This document shows positions 13,908 to 37,225 of a DNA stretch of 64,000 nt, one piece after another. Numbering within the stretch: the stretch's first letter is position 1; the number at the start of each line of letters is the position of its first letter. The stretch comes from Heterotrichella gracilis. Taxonomy: Eukaryota; Sar; Xanthophyceae; Tribonematales; Xanthonemataceae. The notes beneath the pieces are model-generated. The model was not told the DNA's origin and did no database searches. It saw nothing but the letters and a program-made list of their open reading frames with translations. Made by a program: the position numbers and the translations under genes. The stretch lies in NCBI GenBank assembly GCA_032358255.1, contig JAULBX010005220.1:62001-126000 (forward strand), written 5' to 3'.

Positions 13908-16900
13908 GTGGCACCGATGGCAGACGGTGCACCCACCGATGGGGCTGTTTCCCTGCCTCTCCAAGGAGGGGCTGTTTCCCTGCCACTCCCAGGAAGCCCC
14001 ACAAAGACCGGGGCTAACGCGAGGTTCAGGGCGGCTGGCAAGTCGGTGCTTCAGTCCGTGCAGCTGTCTCGCTCCTTCGCCACCCTAAGGGACATGTATG
14101 GAGAAGACCTGCTAGACAACTCAAGGTTCGACCCTGTACCCTCCCCTTGCATAACACACTGCACCTAGTGAAGTGCACCTGTCCTTGCCAAGCGTTACAC
14201 ACCGCAGGTCCACCATACAAGCCCTTGCATAGCGGGTACCAGTAGTGTGGTACTGAAGGGTCCCATTGTGCCCACGCAGCCTCCAGAAGATCTCCATCCT
14301 GGGCGAAGGCGCCTTTGCCGTGGCGGAGCTCTCCACCCTCACCCTCAAGCAGGGGGGCACCGCCAAGGTGGTTGTGAAGCGCCTCAAGCCGCACCTGCTG
14401 GACGATGAGATGGAGCTCAAGGCGTTTGTGCAGGAGTGCAAGATCCTGCGCAAGCTCAAGCACAGGTGCGGGCAGGTGCCTAGGGTCCAGGGTAAGGGCG
14501 TAGGGTTGGAGCTCAAGGCGTATCTGGGGGAGTGCAAGATACTGCACGAGCTAAACCACAAGTATGTACAAACAGAAGCGCATCCTTTGCAGTGTGCACC
14601 ACAACATTTCACTCTTGCCCTCAGGCTTGGCGAGGCGTGTGGGTTCAAGGGTGGGGCCAACTGCTGCTTGCCAGAACATGGTGAACAGGAGAGAATGGTA
14701 GCATCAACACTCGGGGCTGTGTGCCAGCTGTCGGCGGTACACGCAGCACCTTGTTACTTAAGGTTTTGTAAGGGTTCAGCTTGCTCATCACCTTGCTGTT
14801 ACGGTTATAGGGTTGGGTGTGCACACCTCCTGGCCTATTCAAAATCTAGGGCTTCTTGGGTCAACGCGCAAACCACCAGTGCACACACCACATGGTGGGT
14901 TTAGGGTTTTAGGTCCAGCATGCCCCACGTCGTAGTTAGGCTTTAGGGTTCCAGCGAGCCCCACGTCTTTTGTTGACAATTGAATTCAACGCAGGAACAT
15001 CGTCAAGTTCATGGGCATGGGCCAGAACGGGGGCCAGGGCGGGGACCACGACAACTGCTTCCTGGTGCTGGAGTACCTCAACGGGGGAACCATGAAGGAC
15101 CTGCTGTCCAAGCAGATGCTCAACCCATTCAAGAAGCTGTACGCGCTTAATGATGCGCTGTCATGGTGCCTGCAACTGGCTGATGGGCTGGCCTACCTGC
15201 ACACCTCGAAGCCCAAGATCGTGCACAGGGACATGAAGCTGGAAAACGTGTTCTTCAACAAGGGTGGGTGGCTGTCCCGGGGATGGGGCTGTGGTGTCAA
15301 CGCGTGCCATGGCGTTTTAAAGTTTGTTGCGTGCTGTGGTGAATTTTGCGGTGCATCTGCACGAATTTCACTGCCAGGGGTTCACGAGCTGCCCTTCCCT
15401 GGATTTTGGGGTATAAGGTTATCTGCCTGTGGGTCGTGTACAGGACAGCGGGGAGGGACCATTATTTTACATCAGTCATGCATACTTTGGCGGTCTTGAG
15501 CATGTGCGCCTGTTCTATTGCGCAGTGGGGACCGAGTTGATTGCGGAGATTGGAGACTTTGGCTTGTTTGCTGCGGTAGGAAGGGCCGCGGCACAGAGAT
15601 CCAACACCAAGTACGGACCAGGCTGTGTCACCTTGACAGCCTGTGCTAAACCCTGCACCCTAAACCCTAAGCTGCGTCCCTCGACAGCAGTGGCTTCCCC
15701 TGCTGCTGTGCCTCACCCTCTGCCAACAGAAGATACACTGGATCCAATGGTTGGAATCTACAATGATTCCTGTATATTAGCATCAGCTGGGGCGTGAAGC
15801 AATGCCATGCAACCTGTCTTATGCAGCAATGGTTGACACTACTGCCATGCCCTCCTGGCGCGCAAGTGGTGCTCCTGCATCAGGGGGACTTGCCTGCACA
15901 GGGGTACACACATTCCTGCCCTTATTTCGTTTTCCTTTCCTCTCACAGTGATACTCCTGTAAGTAAGAAGATCGGCACTGATGAAGACAAGTGGACCATG
16001 ACAGGAGCCACAGGGTACGATGCCATGCCTGGCTGCACACGTCAAACCTTGCTGCGGCCAATTCTACCATAACACCTGCTGGAATTATACGATTGGAAAA
16101 TTGTAGTGCATTATTGTACATATTTACCCTAGTTTTGCTGCATTTCGCTGTGCCACGTCTGGATTGTTTTTACTGTCAGCGTCAGATGTGGGCGCTGCAG
16201 TTGCACATCACGCAGGCGCATGCTTGCAACCCCCACCCCAGGAGCAAATACCTGCGCTGCCTGCCTGCAGTCCACTGCCACTGGTATGCAAATTATATAC
16301 CTACTCATGCTATGCAGGTCATATATGTACATGGCTCCGGAGGTGTATCTGGGGGAGCCATACAACGAGAAGGTATGTCACTCATCCCATCCTGCCTGCA
16401 CATACAAACCAGTGGTGCAAGTGACATGGCCATCCAACATGCTAGGCCATCTGCATTTGCATGGCGGGGAGTCGACTCATCCATCATAGTGATCCACACG
16501 TGCCATTGCAAATTTATAGCCACAAAGCCTTACAAGTGGACATGGACACCTCTTCATGGAGCCCATGCACAACAGTAACACAGGAAGAATAAAGACAAAC
16601 GAAAAGGATTCAATTTAACTTTTCGTTTGTCTTTATTCTTAAAATTACTTTCCGTTTGTATTTGTGAAAATTAACAAATACATGGCCTGCAGGCGGACGT
16701 GTTTTCCTTTGGCGTGATAGCATACGAGCTGTTCCACCGGGAAATCCTGTCCAGGGCAGTTTCCCAGGAGTCCGTAGTGACGGCACCCCAGCAATGGGCG
16801 CAGAAGGTGCGGGGGCGCAAAATGCAGGGGACCCACTTGGCCTCAGGGAGTGGGCCCTATGTGGCACATGCTGGCTGCATTGCATTGCACGTGCGTGAGG

Positions 16901-17557
16901 GAGGGGCCTGCTCCTGGTGTGGCATGCACTCTTGAATGGATCATGCTGGTCCAGGGGATGATACAAAAAACCATCTACTGCAATTATCATCACGCTTGCC
17001 GTGGCTGTCGTCAATGCGCAGCCCGCACACACACACACCATGCCACCGACCGCACTCGCCCTTGCACACTCTGCGCCACTCAGCTCTGTCTCTGGCAAGC
17101 ATCATACTATTCCACGTCACAAGCCTTTCACTGTAAATATGATGCTGGGTGTCCACAAGCTGGGGTCCAGCTCCCAATTGGGAACCCTTGTACCATCTCT
17201 TTGGTGCATGCAGTAAGGCTCCTTCACGCTAGTTCTCAACCCTAAACCCTAAACCCTAAAACTGTCGTTCCCAACCCTAAAACCCTGATCTGGTTCCCAA
17301 CCCTAAACCCTACCCTGTGGTGCCAGGTGACCACCGGCTACCGGCGAGCAGTCTCTGACCAGCTTCCCGAGGCTGTGCAGCAGGTCATTAAGGACTGCTG
17401 GGCCACCCTGCCCGAGGACCGACCCAACATGACTGCTGTGGTGACAAAGCTCAAGGGGGTACAGGCAGCAGGCGCGCTCAAACACGAGAAGGGGGCGCCG
17501 GCCAAGGCGATGGTGGATGGGGAAGGGGGCGGTGGGTGCTGCTGCGTGGTTATGTGA
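13908..17557 (+). CDS. Protein kinase 1, TKL-like, with C-terminal CaaX box
   Basis: This is a Ser/Thr (TKL-like) protein kinase with a complete catalytic core. Exon 1 (13908-14125) gives a short N-terminal region ending LRDMYGEDLLDN. Exon 2 carries the glycine loop GEGAFA and the catalytic lysine in VVVKRLKPH; helix C is QECKILRKLKH. Exon 3 (from 14995) starts NIVKFMGMG and contains the catalytic loop IVHRDMKLEN. Later exons carry IGDFGLF, an activation segment ending GATGSYMYMAPEV, ADVFSFGVIAYELF, and the C-lobe end CWATLPEDRPNM. The protein ends GGGGCCCVVM; CVVM fits a farnesyl/geranylgeranyl CaaX signal, and the two extra cysteines could be palmitoylated, so membrane anchoring is inferred. 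There are about nine exons. The kinases at 19701 and 34472-37225 are close paralogs with matching intron positions. The second intron holds a partial copy of exon 2. The start could be 13917. Confidence 0.88.
14509..14562 (+). pseudogene. Partial exon 2 copy in the kinase 1 intron
   Basis: This stretch matches 14413-14466, the helix C end of exon 2, 96 bp upstream. Translation gives ELKAYLGECKILHELNHK against ELKAFVQECKILRKLKHR. It lies just after the exon 2 donor and stays open in the same frame, but the third exon joins cleanly to exon 2 without it. Confidence 0.85.
16585..16640. repeat. Perfect 22-bp inverted repeat (hairpin) in a kinase 1 intron
   Basis: The left arm 16585-16606 (AAGAATAAAGACAAAC, continuing GAAAAG) is the exact reverse complement of the right arm 16619-16640, with a 12-nt loop between. 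A diverged half-copy (ACTTTCCGTTTGTATTTGTG) follows directly. It sits between the APEV exon and the ADVFSF exon, about 50 bp before the acceptor. Confidence 0.95.
17231..17312 (+). repeat. Telomere-like CCCTAAA cluster in the last kinase 1 intron
   Basis: About six units of CCCTAAA or CCCTAAAA, some in the phrase TTCCCAACCCTAAA, lie just before the last exon, whose acceptor is at about 17328. Confidence 0.85.
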
Positions 17558-19700
17558 GGCTGGGTTGTGAATTTTTTCCACTGCAAGTTGTTGATTTAGT
17601 TTGGTTGTGTAGGAGCCACGTTCCTGTAGGGTGCCTGTGTGGGGTTTAGTATACACCAGGGCGTTGGAGCGGGGATGCTGAGCACCCCAATCAGTTTCTA
17701 CCGCCCCTATACGCATGCACACTGGGCCTTTTTTTGTTGATCCCTGTTTCTCTCTGCACTGTACGCGTGCCGTGCTGCAGAAACTGTAGCCTGCAAAACG
17801 GCTGTATCCCTTTTTCCATGAGCGATCCCCTCTCACTATTTTACTCCTTGCACGGTTGTGTCAGGCGTACCACGTTGCTGAATCCGATCTGAGAATTTTG
17901 GTAGAGCTGCCGACGCTGTGCGTTTGCTGTGCTTATACCTTTGGTAGGCCACCCACAGGGTGCCTGGCAGTGGTGGCTCACCACAGCAATATACTGTGCG
18001 AATCTGCTGCCCATCCAGGGTGAACACCAAGTGGGCGAAATATTTTGTGCAAGTATATTGTAAATGTTTATTTATTTTAAAAGCTGCCCCTGACGCTGTC
18101 AGAAAGCTTTGTCAAAGACTGGGTTGCACTCTGCACCCGATGGTGGTTGTCTGCACCCAGCTTTGGGCGTTACGGGTTCCAAACCACCGGTCTAAGCAGT
18201 GCTATCAGCGCCATCAAACAGCCAACCCATACCAGTGCACTACTGCAGTACGGTAGTACTGCCCAACCTTGCGCTAGGTCGATTGGGACGGTGTTTAAAA
18301 GTCAGGGTCAGCTGGCTGCGCCCCCACGGGGCTTGGCGCGCTTTTGCTCGGGAGGTTAGTGTGGAACCTTCCACCTGGCCAAAGTGGCCAGCTGGGAGCT
18401 GCTCGCGCCAACACATTAATTGAGAATTGATAAGTGGATCGCTGCGTTTGGTGTTGGCACTTTACCTACAAGCGCCCACTGGGTATTCATCCTTGCAAGT
18501 TGCGGGTTTCGTATTGTGGCTTGTGCTCGCGGAATCTCGCACTGGGCCGCTGTCAATGTATAGAACTGGTCACGTTTTGTGTCTCACCTGATACTAGGTG
18601 AGCTGGCGACACAATTCCCCTGCCTTCTCGGATATGTACGAGGTGAGACTGTTATACTAGCGGTTCGTTTTATCGCGAAGGTAGTTGACCGATACCGGGG
18701 GCTGTCTACTGTGCCCAAAAATCCGTCAATGCAACCAGAAGTGTGCATGTCGTTGCCCACGTGATTCTTGACACCTGTGACCCTGGTACAATGCTTGCTG
18801 CTTGCAAGGGCTGCAACCCAGCGTATTAGGAGTTCACAACCAGCAAGGGCAACCTCCCCGTTTGGTGTTGCTGTGTTAGCCACGCTTCGGCAGCGAGATC
18901 TCGATGCCGCCGACGGAAAGTTGAATGGTTTAGCACCCTTCTCGCGTACCTATAAGTATCTCGCGTATCTTTGCTAGCAAGCTTGCTGGGTCCTGTCATA
19001 CAAGCCCTCATACAGCTGCCAACGTGGTCTCACCTGCATACCCTTCTTCGGTACGTTTGGGCTGGGCCACTCGAGTGGGGAGCTCTCGGGAAGTGTGCGG
19101 GCTACATAATTTGAGTAGTGACGGTTGGGCACTCACTTTGCGAGCGGAATTACACATCCGGGCTGCCACAGCGGTCGCATGCCTCATGCTATGCACGTCT
19201 CCAGCAGGCTCTGATAGGGCACTGCTAGCTGCACTCCTAGGACCATCACATCCATGAAACCCGTTCAAATGTGGCCTTATTCACCCTCTGTGCCTCCTCA
19301 CGTTGCAGAGAACACCAGGAAGTCCAGGTCTGCGCTATTGAGAGAGCTCCTTGCGAGTTAACAGCCCGGTACACAGCATAGCGCTCTATCCGATAGTGCG
19401 CACAGCATAGCAAGATGGAGGAGCAGGCAATGCCACCACCAGTACGTTGACATCCTTCACTATTTACGGACAACCTGCAGGCCTTTGCTAACCCCTACAA
19501 GAGCAGCTTTCGGGTTCAACTATTTTGCCCTCAATGCACTAGGGTGATATACGATGAAGCACCAATTACTCCAAGCCAGCCTGCACACAACCCATGGCCA
19601 GCCCAATAGAAGGGTGCACCAGCCACCCACTTGGCTGCGCCTCACCACGCCCTCAACCTCGTTGCAGGTGAAGACCCAAGCCGCAGAAGGCATGTGGCGC
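17558..19700. other. Spacer between kinase 1 and kinase 2
   Basis: This 2.1-kb stretch holds the kinase 1 3' flank and the kinase 2 upstream region. Many short frames exist on both strands, but none has a recognisable domain. TGTAA at 18058 is about 500 bp past the kinase 1 stop, so the polyadenylation site is unclear. An in-frame upstream ATG for kinase 2 lies at 19554, preceded by no conserved sequence. Confidence 0.5.
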
Positions 19701-22175
19701 ATGGAGTCCTGCGACTCTGCCAAGGGTGCATCTGGAACCCCACAGAAGGGTCCACAGAGTGCCAAGGGCAGATGGGGGTCGCTGGGCAAAAACGTGATCC
19801 TGTCTGTCAGGCTCTCCAGCAAGTTTACAACTCTGAGAGATATGTATGGAGAGGACTTTATTGAGCCCAGCAGGTATGGCCGCAGTGTAACTGGCAGCAA
19901 GGCGCCAACGCCCAGAGTCATGACTTAGCCCTACACACATCCGCTTGCGCAATGAGTGCAACTGATCACGATGCTGAGGATGCATTCTCCAGCTCCGTGT
20001 GGGTTGCATTCACTCATAATTACCCCATGTGGGATGCATCCACCCCCACAGCTGCCAGATGCGATGCACTTCTGTCCTTCATGAGCCGCCGCCAAGTTTG
20101 CCCTAGCCCCTTGTGAGCACCCCTCATGATCATGGTGCAGGTTCGAGACAGTGAAGGTGTTGGGCGAAGGGGCATTTGCCACCGCTGAGCTGTGCAACCT
20201 CAAGTGTGGAGACACCACAAAGCCTGTGGTGGTCAAGCGACTGAAACCACACCTGGTGGAGAATGCTGAGGAGCTGCAGGGCTTTGTGAACGAATGCAAA
20301 TTGCTCAGGAAGCTGAAACACAGGTAAGCAAGTAGATGACTGGGAGGGGATGGTTCCCACTGTTATGTTCACACAGGTCAGGAGAAAAACTAAACTATAC
20401 ATAATAAATAATAATAAAACCACTTGAACCCAGGTGGGATGTGGTCAGCATCTCATTTCATATTCAAAACTCAAGACAGCTGACAACCAAATGGTTGACC
20501 CCTGCAGGAACATCGTCGCGTTCATTGGCATGGGCCAGGTGGAAGCATCAGTCGGATCTGGCACAGACACAGTGCACTGCTACCTTGTGCAAGAGTACAT
20601 GAACAGTGGCACACTTAAGGCGGTAGTTGCAAAAACTATGACGAACCCTTTCAAGCCGCTGTACTCCCACAAAGATGCCTTGGACTGGAGCATACAGGCA
20701 GCGGAAGGGCTGGCGTACCTCCATTCCTCCAAGCCCAAAGTGATCCACAGGGACATCAAGCTGGAGAACATCCTGCTTAAAGGTAGGGATCCCTATCGAT
20801 ATCCTAATTATCATTTTGGCCATGGACACGAGTGCTTGATGTAAAACGGCTGAGTTGAGCAGTACATGGCCGGATCAGGCCACTGTACCATTACCGTTGA
20901 CGGCAAAAAATATGTATTAATCTGCAAACACAGTTAACACTCACCGTTTACTGGTCTCCATGTGTGCAGCTGATGGGGATAAGTTGACTGTGAAGCTGGC
21001 AGATTTTGGGTTGTTTGTAGCTCTGCAGGCTGGTTTCCTGGGCAAGACATATGCAGTTGAGGAGAGGGAGCATGGGTAAGGCACTTGGTCAATGTTGGTG
21101 TAAATACATTAGCTGTTAAAAAGCCCAATCCATGCTGACAGTTTGATACATTGGCATGCAGGTTTGATCCGACAGTGAAGTCTAAAGCAGACAAATGGCA
21201 CCTGACAGGGGTCACTGGGTAAGCACTGCTTGCGAGCGTTAGATATTCCGTGGAACCTTCTGCGAGCTCTCAGACACAATCTTTGCTGCTGCCGAGTATA
21301 TAACACAACGAATTAATGTAGTTCACTGGATTTCGCAGGTCGTATGTATACATGGCCCCAGAAGTCTTCATGAAGCAGCCATACAATGAAAAGGTACGCA
21401 GCTGTTCATATCTGTTTGGACCTTGATGTACTCTTTGAGTCTACCACCATTGAGGCTGCGTCCATATGTGCTCCTCTTTGATTAAATTATCTACAATCTT
21501 TGCAGTGCATGCATTGCCTTCTACATTGCCTTTCACGATTGTAAATCCATGCTTCATGGATACCCAGACTGCACATCGTTAAGGCTTGGGTACCTTGCAG
21601 GCGGATGTGTTTTCCTTCTCCATTGTAATGTATGAGCTGTTCCAGAGAGAGGTTCTGTCCACAGCGCTGAGTGCGCAGTACTCTGCAAATGTCGGTGATG
21701 CTGTGTGGTGGGCGGAAAAGGTAAGCATTGGCTGTGTGTTTGTAAAACATTTTGTACAAGAAGCAGCACATTCTCACTACCAGTAGTTAAACTTCCTCCA
21801 GACAAGGCTTGCTGAGTACAGCCAAAGTCTAGCCTAGATGGTCTTATAAAACCACTGCCGTTAACCATCGTTGACCATCATTGTGGATGTCATCTCTTTG
21901 TATTGCAATGCCAACTGATCAAAATCCTCCCCTTGCACCAGGTGGCAAATGGCACCCGCCGCCCCCTCTCTGCCAAGCTCCCCCAAGAGCTCAAAGACAT
22001 CATCACCTCATGCTGGGCACCTGCACCCGAAGACCGCCCCGACATGCCCCAAGTGCTGAGCCAGCTCAAGGCACTGCAGGAGACAGGGGTCTTTGATGGC
22101 CAGGTGTCCATGAAGGCCCAGGTGGCAGGGGGGGACAAGGCGCAGCCCAAATGCAACTGCTGCGTGGTGATGTGA
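19701..22175 (+). CDS. Protein kinase 2, TKL-like, with C-terminal CaaX box
   Basis: This paralog of kinase 1 has an intact catalytic core. The start at 19701 (or 19692) gives MESCDSAKG, which resembles VEPCDSAKG in the N-terminus of kinase 3; an ATG at 19554 is also in frame. The N-terminal exon ends LRDMYGEDFIEPSR, as in kinase 1. Following blocks are VLGEGAFATAEL, VVVKRLKPHLVE, NECKLLRKLKHRNIVAFIGM, VIHRDIKLENILL, VKLADFGLFVAL, KWHLTGVTGSYVYMAPEV, ADVFSFSIVMYELFQRE and CWAPAPEDRPDM. The tail ends QPKCNCCVVM, a CVVM CaaX box with neighbouring cysteines, suggesting prenylation and possibly palmitoylation. There are about nine exons, with splice positions equivalent to kinase 1. It lies in tandem with kinase 1 on the same strand, so local duplication is likely. 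Substrates cannot be inferred. Confidence 0.9.
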
Positions 22176-24193
22176 GGGCGCAGGCAGGCAAGGCAGCGCA
22201 ACCCAGAACCCACTGGCAGTCTTCATTCAATCAACCCATGCACTCAGGGGATGCTAGGGTCGCGGCATAATGCGTAAGTATGGAGTATTGATGTTTAATA
22301 TGGGCATATTAAAGGGCGACTACATTGGGTATCCCATGCATGCAGTCGGCGCCCTGGGGTTGCATGTATAGGCAGAGAAACATCTATGGACTGCAAATAT
22401 GTCTGTGGCAGCTCAGCATGGCCATAATAGGCATGTGCAACTCCACTGCTTGAGGTGTTGAAGTGCTGCATTTTCTGCATTGAGGTTGCATATGCATTCA
22501 ACACCTTTCTAGTACCTGTATGGTTTATAGGTTGCGCCCAGTTTTGCAGAAGTCTGTACCCAGGGCCTGCAGTCAAATACTAGCATAGGTCTAGTCTTCT
22601 AAACAACTTACCAAAGGTAACGGGAGAGATAGATGGTAATGGTAATGTATGCGCAGTGTGCAGGGTAATTGGCGACATATGCCATACCACGGTGTGCAGT
22701 TTAGCCAATCATGTAGCCATAGCCACGCTTGCACACTCGACAATTAGCTTTAAAGTCCGGCGGCTGGCATCATGCAGTGATATTATGTTTTTTTTTCATT
22801 TTCGTGTTTCAATATCAAAGCTACTTGCATCTTGGCTGTTGGCTTCATGCATGGTGCCCGTACATGACTTCACATTTTACCGGCTAACGCATGACAATTT
22901 TGGGGAGATTCTTTCGGGATTTCCTAACTGGCAGTGCTTTGAAACCGCCGTTTACAATCATTAAACTTAGTTAGGCTGGTCGGGTTTGGTCACTGAGTTG
23001 ATAATCTAGTAGTTAACCTGTCAGCCTGTTGACCCAGTGGTTGCTGCCCAGCCTGTCTGTAATTTTCAACAATGCTGCAGCCACTCGAGTGTGATGGGGC
23101 TGTGTGCGCAGTGCGGGGGCGTTTTACCAAACGGTTTCTTCCTTCCATATTTCTGGTGTGCATTGGTCTTGATGTATCGTAATCGCAAGCTGGTCTGATA
23201 ATCAAAGTTGCAGCACTCACATCGTTGTTTTTCACAAATTACCATCCTGGACCAATCAATTGCTCTACTGTAACAAACAGTCTCAAACAGTCTATAGAGC
23301 TACCATCAGCTCAGCTCACCGTGACAGTGGCAGCAGCCATATGGACACAATGTGCATTGCATGACACATTGTGCGTAAACCATCATCCACGTTGCCAGCA
23401 AGTAAAAAGAAGTAATTCAATTTTAAATGAAAGCGGGCCGTACGCGTACGGAGGCGGAGATTAAGACCCGCTAGCCCTCGGACATTCAGTTTTCAACTGT
23501 GTAAATACCTGGCTAATCGTTACAGTGCTGGTTTGTACAATGCTCATTGGGCAATTGCTGATGTGGCACGGCATTTATGCACAGTGCATTAATTCTTTTC
23601 GAAAAGAATCTTTCAATGCCATGCTACTGCTGGCATCTGACAGGCAGACTTCAATACACTCAATCCCTCCTGTAATTAGCCTGTTACCTGTATTGCGAAG
23701 ATACAAAAAACAGAGAATATTCTCCAAAATTGAGGTCACCAGTCTATAATTATGTGGTATACGTACGTCACCAATAGTTCTGATCCCAAGCATGCTAGTG
23801 GTACATAGGACTGGATGCGCAGTCAACATATGCGCATCTAGTTTTGGGATGAACTAGATGTCACTCCATAGAATACTGCAACGCAAAGCAACAAATGCCA
23901 TAGCCTCTAAGCAATGCAGCCCTAGGTTGGCTTCTACATTCCAATGACTGCACAAAATCCTCACAGCCAGAAAAATGTCGAGCCCATCAGTAATCCACAA
24001 CTGCCAGCAGTACCATGGCTGTTGCACATGGAGGCCTCAACCAAATTGCTGCAAGGTTCCCAAAAGAGGGGCGCCATATGGTACATGGTTGTGCCACCCC
24101 CCTGAGGCACCACCTACCCCTTTTCTGCTGCAGTATTCTTTGCCTGATTTCTATATACGAGATACCCCTGTTTCCTCTGCCCTACCACAACCC
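22176..24193. other. Spacer between convergent kinase 2 and nucleoside hydrolase
   Basis: This AT-richer 2-kb stretch has no recognisable gene. It contains two perfect palindromes: an 18-mer at 23592-23609 and a 14-mer (CCGTACGCGTACGG) near 23439. Confidence 0.6.
23592..23609. repeat. Perfect 18-bp palindrome
   Basis: ATTCTTTTCGAAAAGAAT is its own reverse complement. It contains TTC/GAA blocks but not the regular spacing of a standard heat-shock element. No function is assigned. Confidence 0.9.
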
Positions 24194-26774
24194 TTAGCGC
24201 CGCATAAGGTCCAGCACCAATCTCGCCACTGCCTCCCCATCCACCCCCACTGCGACCTTGACCTTGGGCCGCCCCATCCACACCGTTGTGCCATGCCAGT
24301 TCTTCTCCTGTGCGTCCATCACGCAGTGGCCTTGAGACACACCGTCCGGCACCACCCGCACCTGGGGGAGACACAGGGAAAGGAGGTGAGCTGGGAATGT
24401 AGCATTTGAATACATCAGAGGTGTTGATACTATGAACCATGACTCTTCATCCTGAATTATGATACTGACACCCCTGATCATGTTTATTAAAAAATGCACG
24501 GCAATGCAGAAACCTATTGAACCTTCATTACTATCCACTCGAGTGCAGTACCGGCCCAGCCAACATCAACCCTAAAACCCTGACACTACACACCCACCTC
24601 GCCAGCCTTCCACGTGAACAGTTGCGGCTCCAGCACCGCCGCCAGCGCAGTCGGGTCGTGCACAAACACGCTGTCCATGTCATACGAGTCCCTGTGGTAC
24701 TTGAGGTAGAACTGCGTGATGCGGGACAGGAAGCTGCCGTACTTGCCCTGCCCCTCCATCTCTGCCAGCTGCTGCCCCGTGATGACCACCTTGTGGGTTA
24801 CATCCAGGCCAACCACGCGAATCTGTGGGGGAGGGGCGACAGCGGTGGGATATTGCACCATGGATGGTGGCGTGACGGCGGGGCAAATGTGTGGGTACCA
24901 TGAGCGAATGCGCCAGCCCCCCAATGTCCCAGCAGATGATTTGACTACTACAAAGGCCTCATGTAATGCATCGGTTATTGGGGGCCATGCCGCTACTTTA
25001 CCACACACACAGCACCATGCAATGCAACACACTCAGTACAATGGATGACTCTACAGGTGTAGCAACATATTGAATGAGGTGCGCGGGTGCATCTCATGAA
25101 AAAGGTGAGCTTTATGGCATTTACACTTCCTCCTGTGCCCTCCACATGTGGCATCATCCAGCCACAGGGTGCACAGCTCTGCATGATGCCCACCTTATGT
25201 GTCAGGCCCAGCACAAAGTCCGCTGCATAGGGGTCACCAAAGAAGTTGGCCTCAGCTGCCGGGTTGACATTGCCGTTCACGAAAAATGCTCCGCCAAGGA
25301 CAACAATCTCGCCCTGCGCATGGCGGTAATGTCATTGACACCGGCTGGCCATCCATGAACTAAGCAATGGCATAGCCCCAGATTGACAATGCTGGTTGCA
25401 CAACTGTGGACAGCAAAATTGTCATCTTCCCCCTGTGACCACCGCATATCTGCCACACATTGCTTTCTTACCAGTTCTTCACCCACTCCCTCCCTTGACC
25501 CCTCGAGTCCTAAACAACATCATCATAGCACGACAAGGGCCCAGAAGGTACATCCGCCATGAATGAGCCACCACTCACCAGATTGTCGCCTAGGCAGGGA
25601 TCCAGGTGAAAAGCCAGTGCCAGGTTTGTCAGAGGGCCCAGTGCTAGCACTGTAACCTGCCCCGGGTACTGCCGCGCCATCTCCACAATGAACTGCGCCC
25701 CACTGCGGCCATCAGCAGTGCCCTGCAGGTCATGCACAGGCACAAGTGAGGGATGCAAGCAGGGCACTGGGCCCTCTGTAGGGCATGCCATGCTCGCGTG
25801 CATGCAACAGGTTGTGGAAGACAAGCGCGCATGGTGGGTAATAATGGGTTGATGGGCAAGAATTGAATTAATATAAATAAAACATCATTTAATAAAATTT
25901 GTATTCACACAGCCCACTTCAGAGATTGCAATGTGTGCACGGGCAGTTGTATGCATGCAAGTTGTGGGCACAGCAAAGCCTGGATGATTTCCCATGGCGC
26001 CTGACGAGATGACGCACCGTTGGGGCTGGCTGCTTTGTGTTGCCAAAGCCGTCGTCCCCGTGCACAAAGTCTGCAACCCGCTCCTTGGCTGTGCCTATCA
26101 GCGCTCGATGGCTCCCCTCGCACACAGGCACCTGCCACACACAACTAGGGCTCAGGACCCTGCCCTTCAACGGGTTGCCCCATTCATTACTGAGGTAGTG
26201 CAAGAGGTTGCCTTTCTGGAGTTTCAGCAGAATGATGGCAATATTGCACACTTGTATGCGTACAAGTCTCTCCAGCAAGCTGCTTTATTGGGAGAGTGGG
26301 ATGCGTGTGGACACACCTGGCATTGACCAGCCACTTCCCGGAGGTAGATCGCGTTCTGAGTGGCCATGCCCGTGCGCACATTCCCATAAATAGTAGTCAT
26401 GCCCACAACCTCGACCTTTGAGCTGTTGAAGGCAGCCAGGATGGCCATGGCATCGTCTGTACCAACACAAGGGTTATCAGATCAGAGTTTGCGAGATGTG
26501 GCCATGTGGGCAATGGTGGCCACATATCCGAAGCATTGAGGCAATGGTGCTGACGGTGTGCCAGCTGCCACTGACCTACTCCAGGGTCTGTATCTATGAT
26601 CAGCTTTATCTTGGAGGCACTGCCGTTCTCTGTGGCTAGTGCTGTCTGGGCCATGCTCCCAGACAGAGCATTAATGTCTGCATGACCGTGTGCTCCTTTC
26701 CCTGCCTTGGGGAACTTGGGCAGGTCTGAGGCGGTGTCACTTCTCATAGCTCTATGCCTGTCAACTTGCTGCAT
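24194..26774 (-). CDS. Nucleoside hydrolase (inosine/uridine-preferring type)
   Basis: This enzyme cleaves the N-glycosidic bond of ribonucleosides in purine/pyrimidine salvage. The calcium- and ribose-binding signature DTDPGVDDAMAILAAF is formed across a splice at about 26575/26460. It is followed by VVGMTTIYGNVRTGMATQNA, VPVCEGSHRALIG, FVHGDDGFGNT, VTVLALGPLTNLALAF, VVLGGAFFVNGNVNPAAEAN with FGDPYAADFVL, VVGLDVTHKVVIT, and the conserved FVHDPTALAAVL. The C-terminus ends VARLVLDLMRR. There are about eight exons. The first exon starts at 26774; ATGs further in, at MRSDTAS or MAQTALATENG, are also possible, and the first 45 residues are not conserved in the family. It is divergent from PRORP. 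Substrate preference cannot be read from sequence. Confidence 0.9.
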
Positions 26775-28184
26775 TTGAGCTTGTTTTGGTTAAGTGCTGG
26801 CAACGAGGCACGGCCGGAGGGCACCACTTTCCAAGGGGTGGAACTTCCTGGATGGCACACAAGACACTATTGTGGACTGGAATGACACTGTGTTGGCAAG
26901 TCTACAGGTATACTAGTGTAACAATAAGTTAGTGTTGAATCGCAGAGATCTATGCCAGACGCTTGACTAGGCAAGGGCAATATCAACAGATCAGATAACA
27001 CACATGCCGGGATCTGGGACCAGTTAGAAATTGTTTGGAAATTGTTTACGGGTAGGTCCTTCAGCTGAACTTCATACCACCACAACCCAATGTGTAAAAA
27101 GTGCAACAAGGCTCACAATAGCACCAAAGAGGACAAAACTTGACCTAGCAACTCAACAACCTTGCGCATTTTACGTGCTGATATGCCCACTGGACAGACA
27201 TGGTCCTTATGGTATGTCAGCCACACCTTAGGCCTTATTGCTCATGAACGATCAGGCGTTTGTGCTCCGCTCGCTGCTGCTTTCTTGCAACTGCTTATTC
27301 GCTTGCGTGGCCCACACAGTTGCATGTCCAATAAAACGTTTCCAGGAGGTCCTTGCACCACAGACAGGCAGATAGGCAAGCTTGCCCTTACAGTGGCATT
27401 GGTAGCAGTAAAGTGGTGTGACCTAAGGCTAAATTGGGGTTCGTCGAGGTTTGAGCGAGCGGTTGTCAACAGCTTGCAAGTTGCAGAGTAGGATCGCCAG
27501 TGGGGTGTCAGTAATAGCAAAACCCTAGTATTTTACGTAGTCCCCAACTTTCGCCCAGGTTGATGGCCTGGTGCGGCACCTTCTTACTTCACGGATTGCA
27601 GCTCCGATACGGGTTTATAGCTACTAGAAACTGTGCTCAAGTTCTGCACAAGCACGACAGCTAAGTGACGTGACACGATAGCTCATGCGGAGTGCACACC
27701 ACTTTGGCTTTTTAGAACGCTAACCTCGCCCAGAAGCCTGTTGACCGGTTTCAAGCTCCATATGCATTGCCGAAACGTTTCCACTGACCTCAGTGCCAAG
27801 TGAGGCAGCAACTAGTCACGTTGCAGACCTGCAACTGTTATGTGAACCTGGTCCTGGACATGCATGCGTCGAATGCAAATGGCAGCAAGGTGCCTTTGCC
27901 AAAGTTTCCAAGCGCTTGGAACTTGCACACTGGGCTATCCGCGGCTGCAAGACTTCAAGTTTTTAAGGTACCGTTTCGTTGCCGTGCCCTAGCACTCGCC
28001 ACCGGATTGCCTGGTCATGCATGCATATGACTGCTTTTGGGGCGGCTGCCAAAGAGTCTAGCATGCAGCCAGATACGAAGCCACATCGAGGTACCATGGT
28101 GGGAAACACTCATGGTCGCGTTGTTTGTGCTTTCACTGTCAGCGCATTCTGCCCACGAGGCTTCGAGAAGGTGCCTAGACCTCT
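26775..28184. other. Divergent spacer between nucleoside hydrolase and PRORP
   Basis: This 1.4-kb shared upstream region has no convincing open frame or RNA gene. Nothing specific was recognised beyond ordinary promoter-like sequence. Confidence 0.55.
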
Positions 28185-31100
28185 ATGTCACAGGCTGTCC
28201 CTGCCCCCCAACGCAGATTGAGACCCGTCACAGTGCCTAAAGCAGCTTTCCCACCAAACAAGAGCCTGCAGCGGCTGGAACCTCGAGTAGTCGAAACCTC
28301 CAGTGCCCGGCAGCCTGTGGCAGCGGAGGCTCACATGGAGCAGCAACACACAGACGCACCCCCCCAGAAGAAAGCAAAGACAGGTATGCTGACACCTTCA
28401 CCATCTCAAACCCCTCTGGAGGGTTTTGATCATCGCTGAGGACTCATCCACTGCTCCGTTTGGTCCTGTTATTGCAGACGGGCAGCAAACCCAGGGCCGC
28501 AAAGCCAGGAGGGTACCCACGCCGTTCGAGGCGGTGCAGCTTGACATCCAAAACGCGGTCAAGGCAAGGAACCCGGCCGCTGCCCTGAAGGCATTCGACA
28601 GCGCGCTGGACCAAGGCTTTGTGTTCAAGACGCAGGTGTACAGCTCGCTGGTGTACCTGTGCTCCGGAGGTGAGCGTGCGCGTGTGAAGGGTTTAGGGTT
28701 TGTGTTCACGACACAGGTGGATCTTGCGCTGATGTATGAGCATGTACGTTGAGTGCGCATGGCATGGATCACGATGCAAATGGCCGATGGAGCATAGCGC
28801 CACAGGTGACAGCATTGCATGGATTAGGGTCACGTTGCAGGTAATGAGTGTGCACTGGCAAGTGCAGCTTCCAACGGACTCTAAGATGGGGCATGACTTG
28901 GGTTGTGAAGCGGGCATGTCAACAGTGGATTGCGCCACAATCCCCTGCATACTCAGGCTATGTTTGGTACTCGTGCACTGAGTATGACCATTGGAATACA
29001 TTGGGGAGCTGGCACGCATAGGCGGGTGCCTGGCAGCGGCTTATGGAGGAAAGGAGTGCATGGCGTGTGGTCATTCCATGCATTCCTTTGGGGACATGCA
29101 TGTAAACGTAATCTTCAACTCACGGCTTGGTCATGTTGGCAGGTGAGAACTGGGAGCGCGAGGTTATTGCCACAGCAAAAGCTACACATGAGCTCGCCCA
29201 ACCAACACTGCCGTGGCCGCCCCAGTTCCAGCCTGGGACAGCGGATGGGGATGCAGAGAATGGCAACGGCGATGCAGCAGCTGGTAGGGAAAGAGGGGCC
29301 GAAGGATATGCGCTTTCTGTTTGCAACTCCTCTCCCTAAGTCATGGGCTTCGGCCATGTGCGAGGCCCCTTGGGGCATGCAGCATGGCAACTATTCATTT
29401 TTCTATTCACCTTCAATTATTTATTTTTTGCAAACGGTTTATCATATGTACCTTTGTTTGTTGTTTTTTATGCAGCAGCTGGTACCGGAAGGAAGTCTGG
29501 TGGGCAGGCGCAGGAGCAGCCTGCCAGGGAGGAGCTCCTGCAACGCGGCAAGCAGATCCATGCGCTAGTGAAGGAGCAGCGGGGGGATATGGCTAATGCC
29601 GAGGTGCTGTACACAGGTGCGCATGCATGTGCAATGGCAAAGGATTCTGGCGCTGGGCGCAAGGTTTGGGCCATATCGTGGAAATGGAAACGACGCAGTT
29701 GTATTTGGTTTTGCCAACCATCGGCTGGTGCGCAAACCACGGTGGTGGAAATAATTAGCAACAAGTTATCAGGTGGGAGAATCTTCCATCATGTCACCAC
29801 CACCGCTGCATGTGATGACCATGTGGCGTTACATGGAGGAATGCATGCTGCACGGGATGGGAGGGAGGCTTGGCTTGATGATTGCGCGCTGTGCTTTGTG
29901 GCAGGGCTCGCTCGCCTGGCATCCATTGGCGGGGATTTTGATGAGGCCTACAGGATAGCCAAGTCCATTTCCAGCAATGGGGTTGCACCCAAATTGCGTT
30001 CCTTCACGCCAGCCCTGGTTGGCTTCAGCAGGAGTGGGCAGGTATTGTCATGCATGCATGGTACTGGTCACTCTGGCTGTCACTATGCTTGCATCTTTAA
30101 CCTGGTGAGCACTCAGCTTTCTGGCAGCTGTATTCAAGCGTTTGAATATATACTGATCACCTGTAATAGATGGCCATTTGGGACAAAGGCTGTTGGGACA
30201 GCTGGCTTAGTGTGTTAGATTCTCTGATAAATGGACACTGCTATTCACATCACCCCTGCTTGGCTGAACAGGTGACAAAGGCATTTGAGGTGTACCATAG
30301 CATCAAGGCAGCTGATTTGGAGCTGAACGAGGAGGAGTACGCCACCCTCCTGCGCGTGTGCCAGTATGGTGTGGAATGGCCAGTCGTGAGCGCACTGTTC
30401 CACGAAATGACCCACGAGCTCACCACGCTCTCTGACACAACGCTGGCAATCATTGAGAGCTTCTTTGCCTCGGAAGCTGCACAGCAGGCCTTTGCGAATG
30501 ACCCAGAGCTGCAGGTACTGTGGTGCTTCCTAAACCCTAAGTAATGAACCCTAAACCTCAAACCCAGCACGTTGTCCTGCACATGGAATACAGCAACTTT
30601 GCGGTGGCTTGTATTTTCCCCAAGTGTGGCTTCTTGTGCATGTGAGGCAGGACCCTATAATCCCACAACACAAGCGAAGCATGCGGGTGTAAACCCGAGG
30701 GCGCAAAGTGCAAATAGTATTGTAATGCTAGAGGCTCACAGGGCTTATTTTCTCACGCCAATGGCCCTGTGTGTGATGCAGCAGCGGGGCGATGCATGGC
30801 TGGTGGAGCGCGCCACGGTGAGCGACAGCGGCGTGTGCAGCGCGTGCGGTGACAAGGTGGGTGCGCCCGACCTTGATGATCGGGAGTGGGCGCTGTTCCT
30901 GGAGGCCATCGAGAAGCTGGCCAGGCAGAAGGAGAAGCGACCAAACGACTTCCAGCTCTTCCAGGTGTGGCGCTGGTGCTGGAAGTCACAGGGCTGCTAT
31001 AACATCACCCTTAACCCTTCTTTATTGTCAAGATTTGGCATAGTCAGTTTTCCAGCTTGTACTTAGAGCCCCCGTGCAATTATGAAGGGGACGGCATTGT

Positions 31101-32785
31101 ACATACCCCTCCTGGCCATGTATTGCACCATCACCCCATGCGTGGCCATACCATGTATCCACTGGGGTTACGTATTGTGGTTAACGCATGAGATGTAGTG
31201 TGTTTCAAATGCTCATCTGAACCACATCTGCCGCGCAAACTGATGAAGCATGGCCTGGCCATTACGCAGGAGTGGCTGGATCGGCAGGGGCCCTATGGGA
31301 CGGTGCTGGATGGTGCCAATGTGGCGCTGTTTGGCCAGAACTGGGAGGGTGGCGGGTTCTCCTTTGAGCAGATTCGGCTGGTGATGGAGCACATGCAGGA
31401 GCACCACCCCGCACTCAAGCCCCTCATGGTAAGGGGAACTTCCTGAAACCTGTGCACCGTCATGCACACCTGCGTCACACCGCGTGGGGCATCCGGGGTC
31501 TTGATGGTTTGCTACGTCGGGTGCACACTAAAATATTGCAGGGATATTATTATCGCAGGGATTGTGCCAGGAGCCATGCTCATCGATATCTTTCACTACC
31601 TGGCTTCGCTTCCCCACGCCCAATTTGGCACAATGTTGGACAGCATTACCCTAGCCCAGCACCAAAGCCCTAATTCTACCCTAATTCCGCCGTGCAGGTC
31701 ATGCACGTGGGCCGCGCACGCGCACCTGTTGCCCAGCTGGAGCAGAACCAGGAGCTGCTGGGCAGGCTGCGGCAGGAAAAGCACTTCTACGCCACGCCGC
31801 CGGGGTCCAATGACGACTGGTGAGTGTGCGTTCAGGGATTGCACATAATAGCTATTCCCCCCTCTAATTTTCCTCGCTAGTTCCCTTGAATCGCTACAAA
31901 AGTAGCAATTAAGGGGATCGTCACTTCCCTTGACAATTTGTCAACAGCGTCAGAGTCCTGCTTTTGATTGGCTTGTGGCCTGCAGGTACTGGCTGTACGC
32001 CGCTGTGAAGGCTGGTAGAGAGGGGCTGCTTGTGAGCAACGATGAGATGCGGGACCACATATTCCAGCTGCTGGCGCCAAAGTACTTCCAGAAGTGGAAG
32101 CAGCGGCATCAGGTAGGGGGGGTGCATGCCATGGGTCAGGCGTACATGTGATAACATATGCCTTTTCACCCGTCTCGCTAAACAGCAGTGCACGCATGTG
32201 GATCAATAGTAACACACACAGGTGATATAGCACACCCAGGTGAGACAATTCAAGCGCACCAAATTTAAAGGAGGTGTCAGCAGCGCCTGGACCAGGTCTG
32301 CCAGGCGCCGTGTGTACAAAGCTGGCTGCTAATCTAGCCTTTTAGGGGGAATGCAAGTTATTTACTCATTTGATGGTTGCACATGCATGTGGCAGCACTG
32401 CGTGTTATACAGCACAAATCTGCGCGTGCTTGCACCCACTTTACGGGAAAAGTCTGGGAATGGGGAACGGGGGCATGTGCGCTGCAACTTTGAGAGGGCG
32501 AATCGAAAATTCACTTAGTGTAAAAGCTAACAAGTAAAAATTGCATGCGGGGGAAGGCGGCGCATGCAACGTGTGATGCAAACCTTGGTACTTACCATGT
32601 TCTCAAACGATGTGCAGGTGCACTTCAATTTTGGGCTGGAGGGCATGGAGATCCGGTACCCCCCACCCTTCACATCATGCGTGCAACAGCTGGCGGGAGG
32701 CTCATGGATGTTTCCTTCATCGGACCACCGGCACTGGCTGTGCGCGCGACCTGTCAGGCAGGGTGCAGTGGGTGGGTCCAGCTAG
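28185..32785 (+). CDS. PRORP: Protein-only RNase P (PRORP), PPR plus NYN nuclease
   Basis: This single-protein RNase P removes 5' leaders from precursor tRNAs. The N-terminal 60 or so residues are variable and include PPQKKAKTG, a possible nuclear localisation signal. Pentatricopeptide-type helical repeats follow: AVKARNPAAALKAFDSALDQG, a linker rich in G, D and A, then GGDFDEAYRIAKSISSNGV and KAFEVYHSIKAADLELNEEE. The central zinc-site half is CSACGDKV. The NYN metallonuclease domain has VLDGANVALFGQNW and the acidic SNDDWYWLYAAV, both carrying catalytic aspartates. The C-terminal HRHWLCARPV supplies the remaining zinc ligands. The start at 28185 is the first ATG in frame with conserved sequence. 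There are about eleven exons. One intron holds a partial copy of the preceding exon. Subcellular location is uncertain. Confidence 0.93.
28696..28737 (+). pseudogene. Partial exon copy in a PRORP intron
   Basis: This stretch resembles 28614-28656. Translation gives GFVFTTQVDLALMY against GFVFKTQVYSSLVY. It lies 27 bp after the donor at 28670 and begins in a TTTAGGG motif. Confidence 0.75.
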
Positions 32786-34471
32786 TGATCATCTCAGTAG
32801 TTGTAGCGCCTCGGGCTGGCTTGCAACCCAGCCATTGCTTGGCCTTGGCTAATTACCTCTATCTAGCACGCCAATTTGGCAATCAATTGCCATCATTTGA
32901 ACTGGTGTTAGTGTAATTGGTGACGTGTTACAAGGATGTTAATATATCACGTGATATTTTAAAGTTCTCCAGGCGTTACTCAGTGGCTGTTACAGCCATA
33001 TGTAGATACAGGCTATAATAGGTACCAAGTTGTCCCATTGTGGTACTATGTCACGTTGATAGCTGCAAGTTTCCTCCTTCGTTCCAGCGCAGCCTTAGCT
33101 CTTGGTGCACATGTTGTGGACAGTTACTGAGAAACAAGCCTTGTAGTAGGCGCCAGCAAGCGCAACACGTTGAATCCGTCGTGCGTGTCTTGAAATTACG
33201 CAATGCATTCGAGGCTGCGGTGGATTCAGAGTCTGCTGTGTTGCTATCGGGTAGATTTGGAAACCTAGGTGCACTGCGAGAAACCATTTGGCTCAGCCTT
33301 GGTTCAAAACCTTCAGAGGTCTGGCGCTGGCCCTGGCCCAGTACTCGGAGTGTAGTCTGTCGCCGGTTACAGCAGATCGTGAGCCAATGATTATAGTGTG
33401 CATACCGTATATACACAGGCTGTAATACATACCATGCTACAGAAGTCCTGCCTGGCATGGTGGATCTTGTGCCACAGGCTGATTATGCAACTGCCAGACG
33501 CGAATTGTTCAAGTAGTGCAGATAGATGTAATATATGCAGGTAATAAAAATTTCACGGACTTCCAACACAGTTGTAAATTTGCAGCTGTTGCAAAGCCTG
33601 AGAACCTGGTCCAAACGGTCTTTCAGAAGGTTACGTAGATTGGCATTGCAATGTCTTAGAGTCTTGGCTCAGTCTGAGAAAGGAATGCACGTCGATGCAT
33701 TTATTAACGGCTAGCCTGAGGGGTTGTTGACGTTTTCAAAAGTTCAACCTAGCCGCTAGTTTGCTGAGAACCAGTATATGGAGGAGCAAAGGAAGGAAAC
33801 GCCCGGTGGGGCCACAGGTGATGGTCTAGGTTGAGTAAAAGGCTTGATTGTCCTGCGTAGGTCCTGCTGCAGTCTTGAAATCACTACAAAAATTTGGGAT
33901 ATGAGGGGAAACTGAAAGAAAGCAGTCCATGATGTCTTCAACATGCAATCCACGTGTATATGCTCTGAGAGCACGAGGCAGGTCTACGAGCAATGAACTG
34001 TACAAAGAAGCAAGGAGGCAGATTAAAACTTGGAGGTCAGCTAGTCGAGCGAATTATTTCCTGATCACGATTATCAAAATTGTTGACGTGTGCATGCAGA
34101 CTGTTAAGCGCAAAACTTCATCTTACTGCCATGCCTGCACCTACACACAATCTGTTTGTACAAAAAGTTATTTGCAAGAAAACATGCACCACCTGTTGCA
34201 GTAAAGCCTACGATATGCAATAACCTAGGGAAAAGTGAATTGGGTGCTTGGGAAGCTACAGTACTTTATTCCAAAGATTTTATTGGCTTGCCGCGTGCTG
34301 CAATAGCATGCTGTCATGTGATACCATCGGCGCATCGGACAGAGTCTGACGTTGTGGTGGTCTTGAATTGTTTGTGCATAATGACTGATTGATCTACATG
34401 ATAGTGTACTCACGCTAATACCGAAAAATGCTTGCTAATACCTGCTGTGTAACGCATGCACCAGCCGCCCC
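32786..34471. other. Spacer between convergent PRORP and kinase 3
   Basis: No gene was recognised. The palindrome ATATCACGTGATAT, with a central CACGTG, lies at 32944-32957. TGTAA at 32911-32915 could be the PRORP polyadenylation signal. Confidence 0.55.
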
Positions 34472-37225
34472 TCACATCACGACACAGCACCGCCCCACTC
34501 GCCGCACTCCAATGTCCTCCTCCTCCACTGCCACCTCTCCATGCTTTGGCCTGGGGGACGACTGTGAAGCAAGCGCCGAGCTCTTGCAAGACAGCGTAGA
34601 CTCCCTTTTGAGCATTGCCAGCAGGACAGACTGCCTGGTGAGCGAGGTCTTGACGAGGGACTGCCTGTTTAGAAAGGATTTCATGGTGGACTGATTGACC
34701 AGGCTGGGCTGGTGAGCAAACACACCGCCTTCCTGCATTGTCTTGAGTTGGCTCCGCACATGGAGCATGCTTGGGCGGTCCCCCGGTGTGTGCGCCCAGC
34801 ATGCGGTGATGAGGTCTTTCAATTCCTGGGGGAGCTTGGGCGAGAGAGGGCGACGGATGCCACACGCAACCTGCACACGCCAACCACACCCTGCCTGAGA
34901 CACGTCACTTAGATTTGCAGGCCATGTCATGTGTAGTAATACCGCAGTGTTGTGGGTAAAACGAGCTCTGCAATTGCAATTCACCTACCATCTCAGCCCA
35001 CCACGCTGCATCCTCCATGCCCACACCATACTGCACACTCAGAGCTGAGGCCAGGATTTCCCGGTGGAACAGCTCGTACATGATGACCCCAAAGGAAAAT
35101 ACGTCAGCCTGAAACCATTAACAACACACACGTCAGAAGGTTGGCGTCGTGTGCAATGATTGGGGAGCGGGTCATAATTTGATCACCAATGATGAAGTGC
35201 ATGTATTCATTGAAATGATATTAAACAATTCAGTTGGAACCTTCCCTGATGCAATTGACCAGGGCCGAAGTGATGCAAATAGAAGAGTTCCTCAGGCGGG
35301 TGGTCATGCATACCATGGTACCCATTTCCCACATGACAAGAGCGGCGCACCTTCTCATTGTAAGGTTCCCTCCTGAACACCTCTGGTGCCATGTACATAT
35401 AGGACCCGGTGCCACCGGTCAAGTGCCATTTATCTTGGGTTGAATGTCTGGCTGGCACCCTGCAGCAATCAAGTATCAACCCTCAACACCCTATAGTAAA
35501 AGAACGTCTAAAACCAGCAGGAATGGTCAGATGCCAATCCACTGCCCAACATTCCCAGGCTCTAGTCAATGCCCCACTTTCCATATACTCAAACAACTCA
35601 AATATGACGTTCAGGGCCAGGCGCTCTGCTTTGGTATCGACAGGCAAAGATTACCTGGGGTCTGCCGCAGGGTCTGGTTTGATCATAACCTGTCCTGTAC
35701 CCTTCTGTTCCAGTGCCACAGACAAGCCAAAGTCTGCCAGCTTGACCAACAAGGTGTCACCATCAACTGCATGAACCGCACGCAACCTCAGCAACAGGTG
35801 GACTCCCCGTACCAAGCAGGACTAATCACGCAGGTCAAATGCATGCATTGACAGCATGCAGGTGCTGATGCAAATTTTTGTTGCAGGTCATGCTGCAAAG
35901 CTTCAAACCTGCGCCGTATTGTGATGCACCTTCCAAGTTGTCCCTCAGTGACCAGGGGCAATGAATAAAATCCCACAGCAGAGCAGGCGCGCGTACCGTC
36001 ACACAGCATGTTATCCAGTTTGAGGTCCCTGTGCATGATCCGGGGGTTGGAAGCATGGAGGTACCCAAGCCCCTCCGCAATCTGCCGGCTCCAGTCCAGG
36101 GCATCGGAATGCGAGTAGATGGGCTTGAAGGGGGTCATCATCTGCTTGGTCACCAGCCCCTTGAGGGTGCCAGCCCCCATGTACTCCATGACGATGTAAA
36201 ACTCCTGGGCTACCGGGCTGTCCGACACATGCACCTCCCCCATGCCGATGCACTGCACGACGTTCCTGTACAGGGTGGGGAGGTTTATCAAGCTGCAAGG
36301 CCGATTACATCCCATACCTCCCCTCCATGATACCCTATTCATTACACAATATTTTGTGTTGGATCATCCACTTCCAATGTTGAGAATTTGCTCGGATTAA
36401 GATTAAAGTTCTCAACAAATTTTCAATACAATCAGACATCGAAATTTGAGATTACGATTTCAACTGAGGATTCAGATTTGAGATTACCCACCTGTGCCTG
36501 AGGCTCCTGACCAGCTGCCCCTCCACCACAAACCGCTGCAGCTCCTCGCGTGAGGCGGCATGGGACAGCGGCTTCTTCACAACCACGTGGCGGGGGGCCT
36601 GGTCCACGCTGTGCAGCTGGTGCAGCTCCGCAGAGGCGAAAGCTCCTCGGCCAACCTCCTTGACCAGCTGCAGCCTGTACGCATGGTGGCGTGGTCGTGT
36701 GGTAAGCATACCTCAGAACCATGCCAATTGTGCTTACCAGATGTAGGCCTGGGCCAGATAAGCAGCCCGGGCAAATAAAATAACAAATCCCTGGTACTAC
36801 TTACATATGGGCTGATAAATCTGCAATTCTGTACGCTGGTAAATATTGAAGAGTTGTAATGTTGACGATTGGCCCTCAAGTTACCGCCCAGTTGAAGTTT
36901 AATTTTGGTGTGTGGTCAGTCACATACAACATGATATGCCGCGTCTTCTGCCCAGAGTGCTGCCTAAACTTGCATGTAACTCATGCAAGAATGCATCTGC
37001 TACTGCTATATCCCAATCCAGCGTTGCGCACCGTTCAGGGCCAATGATATCGTCCTCAGTGAGGCCCGGGAGCCTGTGTTTTTGTGTCATCCAGCTGGCT
37101 TGTGGGGTGCCACCTGGCAGCACCGGGACCTCGCCCTTGGCGCTATCACAGGGCTCCACCGACCGCATGCGACCCATGCCACTGTCACATGCCTCCAGGG
37201 ACCGGGGCGTGCCAGCCGCGCCCAT
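34472..37225 (-). CDS. Protein kinase 3, TKL-like, with C-terminal CaaX box
   Basis: This is the third member of the local kinase family, on the opposite strand. Exon 1 (37225-37032) contains an internal repeat, LEACDSGMG then VEPCDSAKG, and ends TEDDIIGPER; its splice lies at the same place as in kinases 1 and 2. Core motifs are VGRGAFASAEL, VVVKKPLSHA, RNVVQCIGMGE, IMHRDLKLDNMLC, VKLADFGLSVAL, HLTGGTGSYMYMAPEV, ADVFSFGVIMYELFHRE and CWAHTPGDRPSM. The intron that splits TG/SY in the other two kinases is absent here. After the kinase domain comes an extra tail of about 70 residues with repeated NQS/NRQS/TRQS segments and basic residues, ending VGRCCVVM, again a CVVM CaaX box beside an extra cysteine. 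Membrane anchoring is inferred. The start could instead be the ATG for MRSVEP. Confidence 0.88.

Follow-up and report, generated by a model that had tools for sequence, protein, structure and literature searches.

Three CCVVM-tailed kinase genes and a putatively membrane-tethered TKL kinase family in Heterotrichella gracilis

What does it mean that neighbouring protein kinase genes end in the same lipid-modification signal? The question is raised by a 64,000-nucleotide stretch of Heterotrichella gracilis DNA (contig JAULBX010005220.1, positions 62,001 to 126,000; hereafter the window), in which the first-pass annotation had recognized three paralogous kinases, here named K1, K2 and K3, each ending in the CaaX box CVVM directly before its stop codon (17557, 22175 and 34472, respectively). 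Spliced gene models, in which all introns have GT-AG borders, confirmed this. Judging from sequence comparisons, we consider it likely (probability of about 0.7) that K1-K3 and their relatives are TKL kinases tethered to membranes by a farnesyl group on the CaaX cysteine and by a second lipid, more likely palmitate, on the neighbouring cysteine.

Kinase domains and C-terminal tails

A Pfam scan revealed a kinase domain in each of the three predicted proteins and no second domain. Both PK_Tyr_Ser-Thr and Pkinase were matched in 3/3 cases with E<=2.3e-42 (3.6e-46 and 4.5e-43, respectively, for K1; 2.6e-45 with PK_Tyr_Ser-Thr for K2; 7.5e-43 with Pkinase for K3). The catalytic Lys and the HRD, DFG and APE motifs are intact and invariant in the alignment of the three proteins, of which K2 and K3 share 51 and 43% identity, respectively, with K1. 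The nearest PDB chains are TAK1 (3e-39) and then plant CTR1 (9e-31), the receptor-like kinase FERONIA being a weaker match (1e-27); TKL, as proposed in the first-pass annotation, is therefore the best placement of these domains. The wording of their activation loops presumably resembles that of the plant Raf-like group C (integrin-linked-kinase-like) kinases.

The predicted C-termini are GGGGCCCVVM (K1), PKCNCCVVM (K2) and GRCCVVM (K3), each followed by the stop. In all three genes the CaaX box is read in the same uninterrupted last exon as kinase subdomain XI, and kinase and tail are thus joined without a further splice. A degenerate CCVVM-stop pattern had four matches in the 68.5-Mb genome, whereas the reversed control had none and about 0.5 would be expected if all bases were used equally. 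Three of these are K1-K3, and the fourth, on contig C495, lies outside any open reading frame of at least 30 aa in its frame.

The kinship of the genes is also visible in their structure (Table 1). K1-K3 agree in the position and phase of six introns (alignment columns 92/2, 154/2, 246-247/1, 281-285/2, 323/0 and 363/0, that at 281-285/2 sitting in a gappy stretch and being matched within four columns), in agreement with the shared introns noticed earlier. Intron 304/2 occurs in K1 and K2 and is absent from K3, and an extra first intron was modelled solely in K2. The N-terminal block that had been ascribed to the whole group held in part: LRDMYGED is confined to K1 and K2, the TEDDIIGP of K3 being a loose counterpart. 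Upstream of the modelled K3 start there is an acceptor AG, with which the exon would begin at 37243, and several ATG-plus-donor candidates, none of them singled out. The true K3 start may thus lie upstream of 37225, on a mini-exon like that of K2.

Table 1. Coordinates of the three kinase genes and their C-terminal tails (window positions; C54 positions in the last column)
Feature	Position	Strand	Remarks
Kinase K1	13917..17557	+	8 exons, 404 aa; spliced model, introns all GT-AG
K1 exons	13917-14125, 14280-14465, 14995-15263, 15526-15610, 15949-16014, 16318-16372, 16693-16806, 17327-17557	+	
CCVVM of K1	17540..17554	+	third Cys before it; stop TGA 17555-17557; C54:79540-79557
Kinase K2	19415..22175	+	9 exons, 420 aa; spliced model, introns all GT-AG
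K2 exons	19415-19441, 19668-19873, 20141-20323, 20508-20782, 20970-21075, 21162-21218, 21339-21393, 21601-21720, 21942-22175	+	
CCVVM of K2	22158..22172	+	inside CNCCVVM; stop TGA 22173-22175; C54:84158-84175
Kinase K3	34472..37225	-	7 exons, 461 aa; N terminus uncertain, introns all GT-AG
K3 exons	37225-37032, 36674-36492, 36265-35997, 35766-35655, 35459-35351, 35108-34989, 34870-34472	-	
CCVVM of K3	34475..34489	-	stop TGA 34474-34472; C54:96472-96489

The wider family and the conservation of its tail

Relatives of K1-K3 were found elsewhere in the genome, which was searched with K2, C9 and C62d as queries; 100 of 164, 144 of 265 and 124 of 167 candidates, respectively, were scored, so the family size given here is a lower bound. 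They comprise (i) four tandem kinases on contig C62 (C62a-d), whose tails CCVLQ, CCVVQ, CCMVQ and CCVVQ are in frame with subdomain XI, (ii) the more distant C9, ending in CCSVQ in the same open frame as its subdomain XI, (iii) C203, ending in SSCCVVQ when read after one inferred intron, and (iv) C149, which runs off the contig end and whose unreadable tail was left uncounted. Splicing to another terminus need not be invoked, as subdomain XI and the CaaX box share an open exon in K1-K3, C62a-d and C9; only C203 requires a further intron. Genome-wide lists of the pattern CC-x-a-Q/M-stop were too noisy for a census: TGG also satisfies TRR, and the listing covered part of the 165 Q matches.

Some peculiarities of these genes were also recorded. 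The DFG motif of C62a (C62:92240-89376) reads DLG. In C203 (locus L013) two kinase exons each occur twice in succession, namely the DFG exon (4941-4885 and 5147-5091, the 19-aa matches being identical) and the exon reading ADVFSF/TDVFSF (3220-3158 and 3001-2864); the copies may represent alternative exons or exons duplicated recently. C149 (L017) likewise has its subdomain XI exon in two similar copies, 499-379 and 303-163, near the contig end.

A tree was computed from kinase domains after removal of the tails, to keep the trait from shaping it. Twenty regions had been retrieved: C575 (L022), found in the C9 search and treated apart, and 19 from a PF07714 search; two of the 19 (L038 and L040) showed no clear subdomain XI end and were dropped, and the remaining 17 together with C771 served as 18 controls. 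K1-K3, C203, C149 and C62a-d form one side of a branch with support 100/98; the root was placed at midpoint, and calling these nine a clade assumes a root outside them. C9 and C575 pair with the same support (100/98) next to the nine (joint branch 95/86), apart from the 18 control kinases. A CC-a-a-M/Q end is present in 8/8 readable members of the nine-member clade and in C9, and in neither C575 nor any of the 18 controls; the fewest changes of this trait on the tree are two. The ends modelled for the controls are less certain than the family tails, L023 and L041 continuing beyond the sequence retrieved. Unspliced read-on from subdomain XI also gave no Cys at position -4 in 17/17 controls, though a CaaX box may lie in a later exon of any of them. 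Since C203, located on another contig, falls among K1-K3 at an open fork, K1-K3 are not shown as a group of their own. With this, and with the second tandem array on C62, the purely local expansion postulated in the first-pass annotation is doubtful and was rejected in that form.

Conservation of the tail was measured as identity counted back from the stop across six lineages (K1, K2, K3, C203, C62b and C9). Positions -2, -4 and -5 are 100% identical, -3 is 67% and -1 is 40% identical (M or Q), giving a mean of 81% for the last five residues versus 11% over the preceding 28 (-6 to -33). In a shuffle test 0/100,000 replicates reached 81% (largest 29%, shuffle mean 8%), which, together with the four CCVVM-stop matches versus none in the reversed control, rules out a chance match. 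In all nine readable tails, positions -5 and -4 are Cys, -2 is V or L and -1 is M or Q, the first a position being Ser in C9. Codons for the two Cys show nothing but synonymous differences among the nine genes. Gene conversion is not favoured as the cause of the likeness of the K1-K3 tails, given these synonymous differences and the unlike flanks. As the flanks are near background identity (11% versus the shuffle mean of 8%), ancestry alone does not explain the tail, which supports its having been kept beyond what the ancestry of the flanks accounts for. The viral_contigs and genome_contigs collections, without kin of this genome, yielded 47 and 14 tail-pattern matches, respectively, none of them a relative.

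Proposed lipid anchoring and its alternatives

According to the proposed mechanism, farnesyltransferase would modify the Cys at -4, after which the last three residues would be removed and the new end methylated. The invariant Cys at -5 (with a further Cys in K1 and K2) would take a second lipid, for which palmitate is likelier than geranylgeranyl. The doubly lipidated kinases would then reside on the cytosolic side of membranes, where they would phosphorylate partners, in a role like that of plant receptor-like cytoplasmic kinases but with the anchor at the opposite end. The CaaX box was judged to be of the farnesyltransferase type because its last residue is M or Q; the residues that specify farnesylation at this place are A, M, S and Q (review PMC9141697).

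Components of the corresponding machinery are encoded in the genome: farnesyltransferase beta (best PDB matches 1e-37, one exon), isoprenylcysteine methyltransferase (7e-8 over 34 residues, one exon), and the beta and alpha subunits of Rab geranylgeranyltransferase, each identified from one exon. PF00432 matches were restricted to two contigs, and hence no beta subunit of geranylgeranyltransferase I was seen. The closest parallel to the tail of K2 comes from human PALM2, which ends in CQCCVVM and equals CNCCVVM in 6/7 places; a farnesyltransferase inhibitor abolishes its membrane location, and its palmitoylation has been reported (PMC10393820). PALM2 is not a kinase, and the likeness is limited to the tails. 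Farnesylation of a kinase is documented for LKB1, in which it raises the membrane share of the protein (PMC3898322). Taken together, the kinases with CCaaX tails are probably tethered to membranes.

Several observations weigh against this reading. The palmitoylation of PALM2 was confirmed by mass spectrometry at C270 and not in the tail (PMC10393820). For C203, the reading of the tail hinges on a last intron that was inferred. For C575, the sister of C9, no CC-a-a-M/Q end was found in the 2.7 kb fetched downstream, in which the only C-x-x-x-stop, CCSE, differs from the CaaX type and could be assigned to no exon; the C9 tail may therefore have a separate origin, or C575 may have lost its tail. 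Farnesyltransferase alpha was not seen with PF01239, a weak probe (32-residue repeats matched exon by exon), which gave one locus whose best match is a Rab-type alpha subunit.

The first-pass annotation had envisaged a prenyl plus palmitoyl anchor. The invariant adjacent Cys fits a second lipid, but CCaaX can be read in two ways, with palmitoyl or as a double prenylation like that of Ykt6. In the latter case Cys -4 would bear farnesyl and Cys -5 a geranylgeranyl group attached by an enzyme of the geranylgeranyltransferase III (GGTase-III) type (PTAR1 plus Rab geranylgeranyltransferase beta), which would give a near-permanent anchor. CC-a-a-M is the motif of Ykt6, on which GGTase-III acts together with farnesyltransferase (PMC9141697), and Ykt6 is dually prenylated in yeast and mammals (review PMC12609287). 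The Ykt6 of this genome (L054, C233:114233-114250), whose tail was located with the pattern lists mentioned above, ends in NSCCRMM, and its last 63 residues match solved Ykt6 (6e-21); it is an internal yardstick for the CC-a-a-M tail, which it shares with the family kinases while being, unlike them, a SNARE. Its last residue is Met (CCRMM), as opposed to Leu in plant Ykt6, which ends in CCxxL (PMC12609287). The Rab geranylgeranyltransferase beta subunit is present, as noted, and an ortholog of PTAR1 exists in Arabidopsis (PMC12609287); PTAR1 itself was not seen in the present genome with the same weak PF01239 probe. This main rival is nevertheless rather unlikely, because GGTase-III recognizes parts of its substrates beyond the tail (PMC9141697) and nothing suggests that it would recognize a kinase domain. 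Moreover, K1 and K2 have Cys beyond the pair, like paralemmins.

It is less probable still that the kinases are farnesylated without stable anchoring, with the lipid used for contacts between proteins or for activation, as it is in Hsp40 and partly in LKB1. The motifs of Ydj1 and LKB1 are indeed farnesylated yet neither cleaved nor methylated (PMC10320760), but the a residues of the family (V-V, V-L, M-V and S-V) look like those of the canonical three-step type, and the invariant second Cys would be left unexplained. That the tail is not lipidated at all, and is kept for metal binding, a disulfide or a C-degron or by recent common ancestry, is the least probable alternative: the Gly-rich stretch preceding the Cys pair in K1, C62a-d and C9 speaks for it, whereas the near-background flanks, the Cys pair fixed relative to the stop and the final M or Q in 9/9 tails speak against it.

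Genomic setting and relation to known kinases

K2 and K3 are separated by two unrelated genes, represented by nucleoside hydrolase exons (24586-26284, minus strand) and exons of a protein-only RNase P (PRORP; 29340-31428, plus strand). The sixth intron of K1 contains a perfect inverted repeat (16585-16640; 22-nt arms, 12 nt between them) that looks like a small palindromic insertion. Telomere-like CCCTAAA repeats occur inside the contig at 11398, 15658, 17240-17260 and 53308-53335, including K1 introns; a telomere-like 14-mer had seven matches in the window (<=1 mismatch) versus 0 expected. A rubrerythrin domain (E 1.4e-42), at first glance surprising in the genome of a eukaryote, is encoded by a long open frame on the minus strand (56839-57963).

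To our knowledge, few protein kinases carry their own prenylation signal. Apart from LKB1/STK11, which like K1-K3 has its own CaaX box, GRK1 and GRK7 are further examples, and all three belong to other kinase groups. We know of no prenylation tail in TAK1 or CTR1, the nearest solved relatives of the K1-K3 domains, or in Raf-like TKL kinases. The plant receptor-like cytoplasmic kinases are short cytosolic kinases bound to the membrane by an N-terminal myristoyl or acyl group, while the signal of the family kinases is a C-terminal CaaX box. LKB1 ends in CKQQ with a single Cys (PMC3898322), in contrast to the Cys pair found here. In the open PMC literature, among the matches listed, no title or abstract opening describes a CaaX-tailed TKL family, in line with the view that the family is undescribed. 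The available part of a plant prenylation review (2025; PMC12609287) mentions, for CXXX proteins, the TOR and SnRK1 kinase pathway bins and names no CaaX-tailed TKL kinases. Kinases with CaaX boxes being already known, a TKL family with a conserved CCaaX tail would represent a new variation.

The occurrence of at least eight such kinases in one genome, with the tail kept while the preceding stretch diverged, suggests an essential role of the tail in their function. Tentatively, we propose that a lineage, which we infer to be chlorophyte, may have evolved an expanded TKL family anchored by a double-lipid CCaaX tail like those of Ykt6 and paralemmin; tethered at the C-terminus, it would be a counterpart of the plant receptor-like cytoplasmic kinases and form an undescribed layer of membrane signalling. 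If this is true, farnesyltransferase would gain a kinase output, which bears on how the cell places kinases on its membranes.

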